Positions 35,841 to 39,549 of a stretch of 64,000 nucleotides of DNA are shown here, piece by piece. Position numbers and translations under genes: made by a program. Source of the stretch: Verrucomicrobiia bacterium (lineage in GTDB: Bacteria; Verrucomicrobiota; Verrucomicrobiia; Limisphaerales; Pedosphaeraceae); assembly GCA_036268055.1 (NCBI GenBank), contig DATAUW010000017.1:62001-126000 (forward strand), written 5' to 3'. Numbering within the stretch: the stretch's first letter is position 1; each line of letters begins with the position of its first letter. The notes under the pieces are model-generated. The model searched no databases. It had not been told where the DNA came from and saw only the letters and a program-made list of their open reading frames with translations.

Positions 35841-35876
35841 TTGACAACCCGGCGCATACCCCCTCACCCTATGCGC
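35841..35876 (+). promoter_or_regulatory. Predicted CsoR-family operator with adjacent TTGACA
   Basis: A perfect seven-base inverted repeat, GCGCATA (35852-35858) and TATGCGC (35870-35876), brackets the C-tract CCCCCTCACCC. A GC-tract flanked by A/T-containing arms is the design of operators bound by CsoR/RcnR/FrmR tetramers. A consensus -35 TTGACA sits at 35841-35846 just before it, so a repressor bound here would cover the promoter. The CsoR-family gene starts 34 bases downstream. Confidence 0.65.
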
Positions 35877-35910
35877 TGATCATTTGATGCGATGATAGAC
35901 TCAAATTTTT

Positions 35911-36195
35911 ATGAAACGCACGCATAACCGTCCGGGATTGGAAAAGAGGGCTCTCGTGGTCCGTCTGCGAAGAATCAAGGGGCAGATTGAAGCCATTGAA
36001 AAAATGGTCGAAGCCGACACTGATTGTTCCGATTTGCTGATGCAAGTCGTCGCCGCGCGGCGGGCGTTGAAATCGTTCAGCGAGGAAATTCTCGAATCGC
36101 ACATGCACTCGTGCATTGAACAGGCGGCCAGCCCAACTGAAGGGCGCGCCAGCCTGCGATCGTTGCTCACCGTTCTGGAACGCTACGTCGCTTAG
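35911..36195 (+). CDS. CsoR/RcnR/FrmR-family metal-responsive repressor (DUF156)
   Basis: This 94-residue all-helical protein has the LRRIKGQIEAIEKMV and LLMQVVAARRALKSF family segments. Potential ligands are Cys39, His64 and Cys68. The spacing (25 and 4) equals the Cys-His-Cys triad of copper sensor CsoR, rather than the ligand sets of nickel-sensing RcnR or formaldehyde-sensing FrmR. The second-shell Tyr and Glu of CsoR are not obvious. It starts just after a dyad operator and ends 11 bases before an MgtA-type P-ATPase gene, so the two are probably one operon. What signal it senses is open. Confidence 0.9.
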   Translation: MKRTHNRPGLEKRALVVRLRRIKGQIEAIEKMVEADTDCSDLLMQVVAARRALKSFSEEILESHMHSCIEQAASPTEGRASLRSLLTVLERYVA

Positions 36196-36206
36196 TCCAA
36201 TCCGTT

Positions 36207-38858
36207 ATGCCAGCCGAAAATCTCAATGCCCAGCGCACTGCGGATCTCGTGCGCGACGCGGCCATGAAGGACGTTTCCGAGACTTTGCAACGGCTCGGCA
36301 CGGCGGTGGAAGGCTTGAGCGAAGAGGAGGCGGCGGAGCGGTTGGAAGTTTTTGGCCCCAACGAAGTCGCACAGGAGCGGAAGCACGAATGGCTGCATCG
36401 CTTGTGGGTGGCGGTGCGCAATCCGCTGGTGATTTTGCTGACGGTGCTGGCCACGCTTTCTTTTCTCACGGATGACATCGCCGGCGGCACGGTGATGATG
36501 GTGATGGTGATCCTTGGCGTTTCGCTGCGTTTCATCCAGGAAACCAAGGCAGGCAACGCAGCGGCGAAACTCAAGGCGATGATCACCGTCACCGCCACGG
36601 TTTTGCGCGACGGCAAGCAAAAGGAAATTCCGCTGCAACAACTCGTTCCGGGCGACATCATCAAACTCTCCGCCGGCGACATGATCCCCGGCGACGTGCG
36701 GCTCGTGACGGCGAAGGATTTGTTCATCATCCAGGCGACGCTCACCGGCGAATCGTTGCCGGTGGAAAAAACCGATGCCCGCGACGCGCGCGAAAATATT
36801 TCCAATATCGAGCGCACGAACCTTTGCTTTCTCGGCACGAGCGTGGAGAGCGGCGCGGCGACGGGCGTCATCGTGGCGACCGGCACGCAAACTTATTTCG
36901 GCAAGATGGCCAGCAGCCTTGCCGGGCAGCATCCCGATACCGCGTTCGACAAGGGCGTGAAACGCTTCGTGTGGCTGATGCTCACGTTCATGCTGATAAT
37001 GGTACCGATGGTGTTTCTCATCAACGGCATCATGAAGCATAACTGGAGGGACGCCTTTTTCTTCGCGATGGCCGTCGCGGTGGGACTCACGCCGGAAATG
37101 CTGCCGATGATTGTTTCCGTCTGCCTCTCCAAGGGCGCGCTCGCGATGTCGAAGAAAAAAGTCATCGTCAAAAAACTTAATTCGATCCAGAACTTCGGCG
37201 CGATGGACGTGCTGTGCACCGACAAGACCGGCACGCTCACCATTGACCGCGTCATCCTGGAATTGCATTGCGATGTTTTCAAAAACGAGAGCGAAGCGGT
37301 GTTGCGCGACGCGTATCTCATCAGCCATTTCCAGACGGGATTGAAAAACGTGCTCGACCGCGCAGTGCTTCATCACAAGGAATTGCACGGCGAACATGGC
37401 ATCGAGAAATACAAAATGGTGGACGAAATCCCGTTCGATTTTTCGCGCCGCATGATGTCCGTCGCGATCGGATGCCCGAACGGCGACCGGCAGTTGCTCA
37501 CCAAGGGCGCCCCCGAGGCGGTGTTTGCCAAGTGCACGCATTTTTTGAGCGACGATGAAATGTTTCCGATGGAACCCATCCTCGTCGGCGATTTGATCGA
37601 GCAAGTGAATTCGCTGAGTGAAGACGGTTTTCGCGTGCTCGCCGTGGCGACGAAAAAATTGGGCGCGAGCCAGACGACTTTTGCCAAATCCGATGAGTGC
37701 GATTTGTGCCTCACGGGGTATCTCGCGTTTCTCGACCCGCCGAAAGAGAGCGCGTCCAAGGCCATCGAAGCGCTGCGCCAACACGGTGTCACTGTGAAAG
37801 TGCTTACGGGGGATAATGATTTGGTCACGCGAAAAGTTTGCAGTGAAGTGGGCATTCACGCGGAAAAGATTTTGCTCGGCAGCCAGGTTGAGAATTTAAC
37901 CGACGAACAGTTGGCGAAGGAAGTTGAGTCCACGGACGTTTTCGCGCGCCTCTCGCCCGCGCACAAAAAACGCGTTGTCCAGGCGTTGCAACGGAACAAG
38001 CACGTCGTGGGTTTCATGGGCGATGGCATTAATGACGCGCCGGCGTTGCGCGCGGCGGATGTCGGACTCTCAGTGGACAACGCCGTGGACATCGCGAAGG
38101 AATCGGCGGACATGATCCTGCTGGAAAAAAATTTGATGGTGCTCGAAGAAGGCGTGATCGAGGGACGCAAGGTGTTCGCGAATATTTTGAAATACATCCG
38201 CATGGGCGCCAGTTCGAATTTCGGCAATATGTTCAGCGTGCTCGGCGCGAGCGCGTGGCTGCCGTTTTTGCCGATGCAACCGATCCAGGTGCTCACGAAC
38301 AATCTGCTCTATGATTTTTCGCAGGTGCCGATTCCGACGGACAACGTCGGCGAACAATTCACGGCCAAGCCGCGTCCATGGCACATGGGCGAAATCGCGA
38401 AGTTCATTATTTTCATCGGGCCGATCAGTTCGATCTTCGATTACACGACGTATTTTTTGATGTGGTTCTTTTTCAAGTGCGGGAATCTTGCGCTCGCGGC
38501 TCCGCCGGAATTGGCCGCGCGTTTTGCGCATGCACCCGACGCCGATCATACTTATGCCGCCGCGCTGTTCAGCACCGGCTGGTTCGTGGAATCATTGATG
38601 ACGCAAACGCTCATCGTCCACGTCATCCGCACGAACTTGATTCCATTCATCCAATCGCGCGCGAGCTGGCAACTCACTTTGACGACCGTGACCATCATGG
38701 GCGTCGGCGCGGCGCTGCCGTTTTCGCCGCTGGCGAGATACTTGGGCTTCGTGCCGCTGCCGTGGCAGTTCTGGCCGTTCCTCGCATTGACGCTGGTCTG
38801 CTACGTGGCGCTCACTCAGGTCATCAAGACGTTTCTCGTGCGCAAGTCGTGGATCTGA
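36207..38858 (+). CDS. mgtA: Magnesium-translocating P-type ATPase, MgtA type (P3B)
   Basis: This 883-residue P-type ATPase has actuator motif TLTGES (about 177-182), phosphorylation motif CTDKTGTLT (Asp near 338), nucleotide-binding TKGAPEAVFAKC and hinge MGDGINDAPALR (about 604-615). Helix 4 reads VGLTPEMLPMIV, the PEMLP element of the Mg transporters MgtA/MgtB, not the CPC of copper pumps. A C-terminal membrane domain of six helices follows. It should import magnesium or possibly nickel. It lies in a probable operon with the upstream CsoR-family regulator, an uncommon pairing as far as is known. Confidence 0.93.
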   Translation: MPAENLNAQRTADLVRDAAMKDVSETLQRLGTAVEGLSEEEAAERLEVFGPNEVAQERKHEWLHRLWVAVRNPLVILLTVLATLSFLTDDIAGGTVMMVMVILGVSLRFIQETKAGNAAAKLKAMITVTATVLRDGKQKEIPLQQLVPGDIIKLSAGDMIPGDVRLVTAKDLFIIQATLTGESLPVEKTDARDARENISNIERTNLCFLGTSVESGAATGVIVATGTQTYFGKMASSLAGQHPDTAFDKGVKRFVWLMLTFMLIMVPMVFLINGIMKHNWRDAFFFAMAVAVGLTPEMLPMIVSVCLSKGALAMSKKKVIVKKLNSIQNFGAMDVLCTDKTGTLTIDRVILELHCDVFKNESEAVLRDAYLISHFQTGLKNVLDRAVLHHKELHGEHGIEKYKMVDEIPFDFSRRMMSVAIGCPNGDRQLLTKGAPEAVFAKCTHFLSDDEMFPMEPILVGDLIEQVNSLSEDGFRVLAVATKKLGASQTTFAKSDECDLCLTGYLAFLDPPKESASKAIEALRQHGVTVKVLTGDNDLVTRKVCSEVGIHAEKILLGSQVENLTDEQLAKEVESTDVFARLSPAHKKRVVQALQRNKHVVGFMGDGINDAPALRAADVGLSVDNAVDIAKESADMILLEKNLMVLEEGVIEGRKVFANILKYIRMGASSNFGNMFSVLGASAWLPFLPMQPIQVLTNNLLYDFSQVPIPTDNVGEQFTAKPRPWHMGEIAKFIIFIGPISSIFDYTTYFLMWFFFKCGNLALAAPPELAARFAHAPDADHTYAAALFSTGWFVESLMTQTLIVHVIRTNLIPFIQSRASWQLTLTTVTIMGVGAALPFSPLARYLGFVPLPWQFWPFLALTLVCYVALTQVIKTFLVRKSWI

Positions 38859-38970: not shown

Positions 38971-39549
38971 TTAGCGCCTCAACAAATCGCCGACGTCCAC
39001 GCTGACATCGGGGAAGGCCAGCACAGTGGCTTTGCCGCCAGCACGCAAAATAGTTTTGCTGCCGTAGCCGGTGAAATTGGGTTCGCGATAAATTTCAACG
39101 ACGGATTCGATTAGATTTATAATCCAGACTTCATTGATGCCGGCGCGGCCATACAAGGGAAGTTTCGTGCTGCGATCAAAATTGAGTGAGCTATCCGCGA
39201 CTTCGACGATCAAAAAAACTTCGCTGGGAGTGGGATCGCTGGTGGTATAGTAGTTTAGCGAAGGTTAAAGTAATGCAATATCCGGCTCAGGTTCGGAGTA
39301 TTCATCCAAACGAATCGAATTTTGAGGCCAAACCAGCCAGCGGTCACTCGATAGCTTCATGAACAAGTGAGCCATTCTGGCAACGATACCGCGATGAAAT
39401 TGGCCTATTGGTGACATATCAATGATTTCTCCCTCAATCAATTCGACTCGCGCCTCTGGCGACAAGACGCCTATTTCCGCCATGCGGTGGTAATTCGTCA
39501 CGCTGAAACGATGTGTCGTTTGCGCTAACATAGAAAACATCCTAGCCAA
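38971..39549 (-). pseudogene. Uma2-family (PD-D/ExK-like) nuclease, interrupted by an in-frame TAA
   Basis: Two pieces in one frame make a single 193-codon Uma2 (DUF820) protein. The first half begins MARMFSMLAQTTHRFSVTNY and ends SEPEPDIALL at a TAA (39265-39267). The second continues LNYYTTSDPTPSEVFLIVEV and ends in DLLRR. Catalytic-type residues survive on both sides: the Asp of EPDIALL, the Glu of VEVADSS and the Lys of DRSTKLPLYGRAGINEVWI. A single base change, for example AAA to TAA, would explain it. It is most simply a recently disabled gene, with a sequencing error or readthrough less likely. trpB ends directly upstream. Confidence 0.85.

Follow-up and report, generated by a model that had tools for sequence, protein, structure and literature searches.

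A CsoR/RcnR-family regulator linked to an MgtA-type ATPase in Verrucomicrobiia: possible recruitment of a nickel/cobalt-type repressor to magnesium uptake

Overview

A stretch of 64,000 nucleotides from a Verrucomicrobiia bacterium of the family Pedosphaeraceae (contig DATAUW010000017.1 of assembly GCA_036268055.1, positions 62,001 to 126,000; the window, below) encodes a predicted repressor of the CsoR/RcnR family (DUF156) and, 11 bases after its stop codon, a P-type ATPase of the MgtA type. The explanation that we favor, with moderate confidence, is that a Ni/Co-type repressor has been recruited to a Mg2+ uptake module and is released by Ni/Co or a similar metal. Sequence comparison supports the linkage of the two genes, the predicted operator, the Ni/Co-branch ancestry of the regulator and the Mg-type ion path of the pump. 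An earlier note, made from the letters of this DNA alone, had drawn attention to the pair; its observation is confirmed and its interpretation is partly supported. The features under discussion are the following, with the evidence in parentheses.

35841..35846, plus strand: TTGACA hexamer, a possible -35 element (letters; the spacing is unlike that in relatives)
35852..35876, no strand assigned: predicted operator, a 7-11-7 dyad (conserved core ATACCCCCTCACCCTAT at 35856-35872)
35911..36195, plus strand: predicted repressor of the CsoR/RcnR family (DUF156), 94 amino acids (PF02583 match, ligand table, tree)
35923..35925, plus strand: codon of His5, W position (PDB phmmer alignment with InrS His21)
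36025..36027, plus strand: codon of Cys39, X position (ligand table)
36100..36102, plus strand: codon of His64, Y position (ligand table)
36112..36114, plus strand: codon of Cys68, Z position (ligand table)
36207..38858, plus strand: MgtA-type (P3B) magnesium-translocating P-type ATPase, 883 amino acids (TIGR01524, PDB match, ion-path residues)
37092..37106, plus strand: PEMLP of helix 4, which holds the equivalent of Escherichia coli MgtA Glu331 (residue alignment)

Conservation of the regulator-ATPase pair

Whole-genome searches covered the window's own genome, samples of its family, order and class, and 17 chosen genomes; named genomes were also scanned with two short peptide patterns, which yielded 52 loci (L-numbers denote loci and G-numbers genomes, G000 being the window's own). 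The order sample contains a PF02583 match in 17 of 196 genomes and an ATPase match (E 1e-100 or better) in 44, and the class sample contains a regulator match in 61 of 384 genomes and an ATPase match in 90. The two genes are adjacent by coordinates in five genomes of the order sample (G000, G004, G081, G182 and G195) and in four of the class sample (G000, G004, G203 and G280).

The earlier note proposed a search of other Verrucomicrobiota for the regulator, the dyad and the ATPase together. All nine loci with regulators at least 69% identical to that of the window (L145-L153; 69-83%) have a same-strand ATPase gene downstream (the contig of L149 ends inside it) and a variant of the operator core upstream. 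The hosts are mostly Limisphaerales, Verrucomicrobiia or Verrucomicrobia subdivision 3; L152, recorded as Proteobacteria, is the sequence of G195, a genome placed in the window's order. A gene for a phosphotransferase system (PTS) EIIA protein lies between the regulator and the ATPase in four loci (L147, L149, L150 and L152; PF00359 match for L147, tested as the identical sequence L036), and a divergent OprB porin gene is located upstream in six (L146, L147, L148, L151, L152 and L153) and downstream in L150. Within L047-L076, the operator is absent, up to 700 nucleotides upstream, from all 24 regulator-less ATPase loci that have upstream sequence (26 loci are regulator-less); it was found in two of the four regulator-bearing loci of this set, and in L051 and L069 it lies beyond the scanned stretch. 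That the pairing is real and conserved is thus well supported by these comparisons. The earlier note had taken a link of such regulators to a copper or nickel gene elsewhere as the sign of an incidental pairing: the pairing holds in the closest relatives (9/9), but further out half of this is found, as the sister regulators adjoin RcnA.

An EIIA-type-2 gene directly precedes the ATPase also in L066, where there is no regulator, and an EIIA-like stretch follows the pump in the more distant ATPase loci L074-L076, L110 and L116. The EIIA-MgtA link may predate the one with the repressor.

Both parts of the module belong to known families, and the wiring was not found in print. Literature searches, which covered few subscription journals, returned no title or abstract opening that describes a regulator-MgtA pairing, in agreement with the earlier statement that sensor and pump type are unlike known pairs. 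In the available parts of PMC7689651 and PMC10353221, CsoR and MgtA co-occur, but apart, in a reference list or gene list.

Operator and promoter elements

The predicted operator, GCGCATA-CCCCCTCACCC-TATGCGC, is the perfect 7-11-7 dyad around a C-tract that the earlier note had described, and occupies positions -59 to -35 relative to the regulator start. Its core consists of two C-tracts 3 nucleotides apart, and 11 nucleotides separate the AT-rich arms. When the bases of the 245-nucleotide upstream stretch are shuffled 2000 times, a 7-11-7 dyad arises in 1.5% of the shuffles and a 7-nucleotide dyad with any spacer of 3-20 in 18.8%; the perfect dyad taken alone is weak evidence. The C-tract core, by contrast with chance expectation, is strong evidence. 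The sequence ATACCCCCNNNCCCTAT, allowing up to one mismatch, does not occur in 100 shuffles of the window and has a single exact match across the 5.1-Mb genome. As read by eye, what recurs 5' of the regulators of relatives is variants of the core, without the outer GCG/CGC arms. Further genomic sites for the regulator were considered and rejected: the sole near match, with one mismatch, sits inside a reading frame of 500 amino acids, read as a permease without a family search.

Copper CsoRs have operators of the form TACX9GTA. Such a site is present in the copper-linked locus L006, whereas the window site reads TAC...CTA. Type 2 sites of the CsoR/RcnR family comprise two G/C tracts 2-4 bases apart and AT-rich repeats typically 11 bp apart (PMC3902906, cited, like the other papers here, from excerpts). 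The window operator fits this type, as opposed to the RcnR-type operator TACT-G6-N-AGTA (same source), and is the candidate binding site of the regulator.

The TTGACA that the earlier note had placed beside the dyad is there, but a promoter scan finds no -10 partner 16-18 nucleotides away, and a sigma-70 promoter at 35841-35846 was rejected for this reason. TTGACA lies 17 nucleotides before the TACCCC of the operator in L148, L149, L150, L151 and L153, a spacing from which that of the window differs. On the opposite strand, the element TTGAC[GC]-18-TAT spans the operator in all six loci with a divergent OprB gene and in none of the four without it (the window, L145, L149 and L150; Fisher p 0.005, for rows that are related by descent). 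The same element with 18 nucleotides is present in the RcnA-linked sisters L154, L155, L042 and L039, and with 19 nucleotides in L107. The porin seems to have replaced RcnA on the same promoter; the window is without the divergent OprB side of the operator. No Rfam leader RNA, such as the M-box, reaches the gathering score in 20 ATPase loci including that of the window (L047), and M-box-like leader control of the ATPase was ruled out on these grounds.

Metal ligands and ancestry of the regulator

The regulator matches PF02583 with 88.9 bits (gathering cut-off 22.8) and, as stated in the earlier note, has Cys39, His64 and Cys68. In a table of 82 regulators (without the frame-shifted L008, the partial L046, the partial copper-type regulator of L007, and L038, L036, L035 and L045, duplicates of L154, L147, L152 and L156, respectively), H5, C39, H64 and C68 form a W-X-Y-Z set His-Cys-His-Cys, the same as that of InrS, the Ni(II) sensor of Synechocystis, which likewise has no Tyr at position A. 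A phmmer comparison with PDB pairs His5 of the window regulator with His21 of InrS. The InrS set consists of His21, Cys53, His78 and Cys82 (PMC4235346, PMC7055735); the role of His21 is left open in PMC4235346, and X-ray absorption work cited in PMC7055735 makes it a ligand. Unlike the window regulator, InrS retains the Glu at position B (PMC4235346) and targets the Ni exporter NrsD and the nik genes rather than a Mg pump (PMC7055735).

The copper reading of Cys39/His64/Cys68 in the earlier note is not supported: these residues fit a Cu(I) triad, but they equally form the nickel triad of InrS, with H5 completing the set. Copper CsoRs have a second shell of Tyr (position A) and Glu (position B). 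These residues are present in the CopA-linked, copper CsoR-like L006, L034, L157 and L166, and the window regulator has Asp38 and Ser84 instead. The CopA-labelled L117, L120, L123 and L170 lack the Tyr, and L164, L181, L189 and L190 have it with no classified neighbor; given that Tyr and CopA labels disagree in several rows, the neighbor label alone cannot define the type of a regulator. The window protein thus has in common with the copper CsoR/CopA system the family and the X-Y-Z triad, but not the Tyr/Glu shell, a CopA neighbor or the TACX9GTA operator. A true copper sensor (CsoR) driving the ATPase is, in our estimate, very unlikely, even though InrS shares this triad and has a high affinity for Cu(I) (PMC4235346, PMC7055735). 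Apart from the second shell and the operator, the sister regulators adjoin RcnA, and the CPC-motif pumps encoded elsewhere in G000 (L022, L024) have no CsoR beside them because the only PF02583 protein of this genome (96% complete) is the window's regulator. The identification as copper CsoR was dropped on the second shell, the operator form and the neighbors. Locus L006 carries, besides its copper-type CsoR gene (L006:8422-8709), a partial second copy (L006:220-354) that runs into an unrelated reading frame of 886 amino acids, possibly a duplication or an assembly fault.

The best NCBIfam profile match of the regulator is FrmR (NF008464), with 55.6 bits against a cut-off of 133, and RicR is nearly equal with 55.3 bits. 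A sensor of formaldehyde (FrmR-like) or persulfide (CstR-like), which this match might bring to mind, is nevertheless highly improbable: the Cys at position Z and the N-terminal His suit metal sensing, and no formaldehyde or sulfur gene was recognized beside 11 relatives, no search having been aimed at such genes.

A tree of 80 regulators (102 columns; the set of 82 without L195 and L156) places the MgtA-linked regulators of the window and L145-L153 (10 rows) in one clade with support 100/99, the sister of which consists of the RcnA-linked L042, L039, L154 and L155 (joint clade 100/97). Around these lies a clade of 38 rows, which come almost entirely from the class of the window or carry Verrucomicrobiota in their titles; it includes 20 RcnA-linked, 12 MgtA-linked, 3 CopA-linked and 3 other regulators. 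In all 20 RcnA-linked rows, the RcnA-like gene is divergent from the regulator gene (the copy in L154 is a broken remnant); two tested proteins match NF007454 with 358 and 368 bits (cut-off 195) as well as PF03824, and the remaining ones were assigned by similarity. The MgtA label requires two origins on this tree, L110 and L116 being separate and nested beside the RcnA-linked L113, with an ATPase 54% identical to that of the window. The tree places the regulator in a Ni/Co branch; with 102 columns, a long-branch warning and an uninferred root, a change of partner from RcnA to MgtA is what it most simply implies and does not prove. In the second pairing, a protein of 174 amino acids is encoded between the operator of the repressor and the ATPase (L110:4072-4593 and L116:5491-5997), for which no Pfam match was found (L110 copy tested).

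The sister regulators resemble the RcnR/RcnA and DmeR/DmeF systems in that they are divergent from RcnA, and a C-tract operator precedes the regulator's own gene. Within the 52 loci, a CDF-like gene is a neighbor in 22 and an RcnA-like gene in 5. The window differs from RcnR and DmeR in the Z ligand, which is Cys and not His, and in the target, which is MgtA.

The ATPase and its cargo

The ATPase, which begins 11 bases after the regulator and contains PEMLP as the earlier note had it, matches TIGR01524 with 1128.6 bits (curated cut-off 610.75), and its best match in PDB is E. coli MgtA (8uy7). At 12 of the 16 ion-path positions, the roles of which in E. coli MgtA, including that of E331, are given in excerpts of PMC10925321, the residues are identical to those of E. 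coli MgtA, the four changes being T702G, H729Q, Q733N and S813T. E331, N709, D738, S776 and D780 (E. coli MgtA numbering) are invariant across a table of 55 ATPases (without L069, L071, L147 and L156, which are too short, and L149, with 38 residues to the contig end). The 16-position pattern of the window is exact in 12/12 regulator-linked ATPases (two of which, L051 and L152, represent the same locus) and in 40/43 unlinked ones; the exceptions are L140, with Ser at 702, and L058 and L136, with Ser at 706. None of the 16 positions separates linked from unlinked copies, and a marked change of cargo was rejected accordingly. Since the ion-path residues are the same with and without the regulator, its presence marks no cargo change; the linkage probably leaves the cargo unchanged, and the ATPase is very probably a Mg2+ importer, as judged by these residues. 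The P3B family and the ion path are shared with the enterobacterial MgtA and MgtB, which are controlled by PhoPQ and a leader RNA (PMC9276622, PMC8264917, in part), whereas in the window the gene of a DUF156 repressor precedes the pump.

The earlier note had offered two alternatives, another stress that demands Mg import or an ATPase that carries another metal. The former fits better because the Mg pathway residues match in the 12 linked and nearly all 43 unlinked ATPases, and this same ion path speaks against the latter. The ATPase is quite unlikely to move Ni(II)/Co(II) itself, whether outward as a substitute for RcnA or inward with its expression turned on by the metal-free regulator. Such transport would agree with the position of MgtA, which occupies the place of RcnA beside this regulator type in two separate branches, and with the enhancement of nickel import (nik) genes by InrS (PMC7055735, in part); export in particular sits poorly with the presence, in six relatives, of an outer-membrane porin gene at the same operator region. 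It would also agree with the distribution of NicO, which is unmatched in 10 of 14 MgtA-linked genomes, that of the window included, and present in 3 of 4 RcnA-linked ones; 17 genomes were searched besides G000, and as some are incomplete, absence is weak evidence. Specifically, NicO was not found in the MgtA-linked G510, G511, G512, G513, G515, G081, G182, G280 and G203, and was matched in G195, G509 and G514 and weakly in G004; among the RcnA-linked genomes, it was matched in G082, G024 and G089 and not in G153. The match in G514 spans the whole profile (348.7 bits), and this protein is possibly a nickel importer.

G000 itself has no NicO match, so that there is no RcnA gene beside the regulator, and no CorA match, although one is present in all 14 control genomes (in 13 of them above the cut-off). 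It encodes one MgtE, a protein that lets Co2+ and Ni2+ pass according to an excerpt of PMC9276622 and therefore provides an entry route for the model proposed below.

Downstream of the ATPase, on the minus strand (38971-39549), the window contains two halves of a Uma2-family gene, matching PF05685 profile positions 3-76 and 98-171 in the same frame with an in-frame stop between them. This remnant is probably a pseudogene.

Proposed mechanism and alternatives

The effector metal, the derepression, the Mg2+ cargo and the physiological purpose are what we infer in the following scheme. The metal-free regulator would sit on the C-tract operator 5' of its own gene and repress the regulator-ATPase operon; in relatives, repression would extend to the EIIA gene and the divergent OprB porin. 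If the cytoplasmic level of Ni(II)/Co(II), or of a metal with similar chemistry, went up, the ion would be bound via H5, C39, H64 and C68, and the metal-bound regulator would leave the DNA, so that the ATP-driven Mg2+ importer is made. Import would then restore the share of Mg2+ against competitor ions that leak in via unselective channels such as MgtE. The combination of a divergent porin with an importer indicates an uptake function.

Several observations weigh against recruitment of an active Ni/Co sensor. The NCBIfam equivalog cut-off of RcnR (NF011613) is not reached by the window regulator (42.1 vs 138 bits), and the Glu at position B is gone in the main MgtA clade and in the RcnA-linked sisters L042, L039, L154 and L155. 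The opposite-strand promoter is missing from the other 15 RcnA-linked rows examined. The operator is absent before the RcnA-type genes of G195 and G509, both of which have an MgtA-linked regulator; Ni export is therefore not co-regulated there, and distant control of RcnA by the same regulator was excluded. Linked and unlinked ATPases are mixed inside a 22-row clade of the ATPase tree (L152 was dropped as the duplicate of L051), from which it follows that the regulator is dispensable; a subfamily of linked ATPases was rejected for the same mixing. Four of the 12 main-clade members have damaged sensors: L151 (Y=Arg, Z=Tyr; that is, His to Arg and Cys to Tyr) and L153 (X=Ser, Z=Phe; Cys to Ser and Cys to Phe), where operator, regulator and ATPase are still together, G004, where the reading frame of the regulator is broken, and L156/G182, where the regulator is degenerate with X=Thr and no operator is seen. 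Loss of an X, Y or Z ligand affects 2 of the 24 RcnA-linked rows (L121 and L122), a difference that is not significant (Fisher p 0.15). The N-terminal His is present in 7/10 rows of the MgtA clade (missing in L145, L149 and L150) vs 24/24 RcnA-linked rows (p 0.02, optimistic as the rows are related). The counts of this residue, of the operator variants and of the ligand losses come from visual inspection of the tables. Given the ligand and frame losses and the missing N-terminal His, some members of the MgtA-linked clade may respond less strictly to metal.

These losses, the operator kept in L151 and L153, and the interspersed ATPases are what would be expected if the regulator had lost, or were losing, metal sensing, to become a simple autorepressor or to respond to another signal, with the Ni/Co ligands as relics. 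Such a general loss is nonetheless unlikely, as X-Y-Z is intact in 8 of the 12 members, the window included, and the regulator and operator are retained jointly in all nine closest loci.

Recruitment of a Ni/Co-type repressor to Mg2+ uptake remains the favored explanation. Its extension to a cross-metal circuit is put forward tentatively: on two occasions, a Ni/Co repressor lineage would have exchanged a Ni/Co exporter for a Mg2+ importer as its target, with the porin of the main lineage on the same operator as the importer, so that the response to transition-metal stress is Mg uptake instead of export of the metal.

Implications

If Ni/Co indeed controls Mg2+ uptake in these bacteria, the module would tie the main divalent cation to a trace metal at the level of transcription. 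It would then be a simple test case for the upkeep of metal ratios, as well as for a sensor that changes its target while the operator and the fold are kept, with the RcnA-linked sister clade offering a natural before-and-after comparison.

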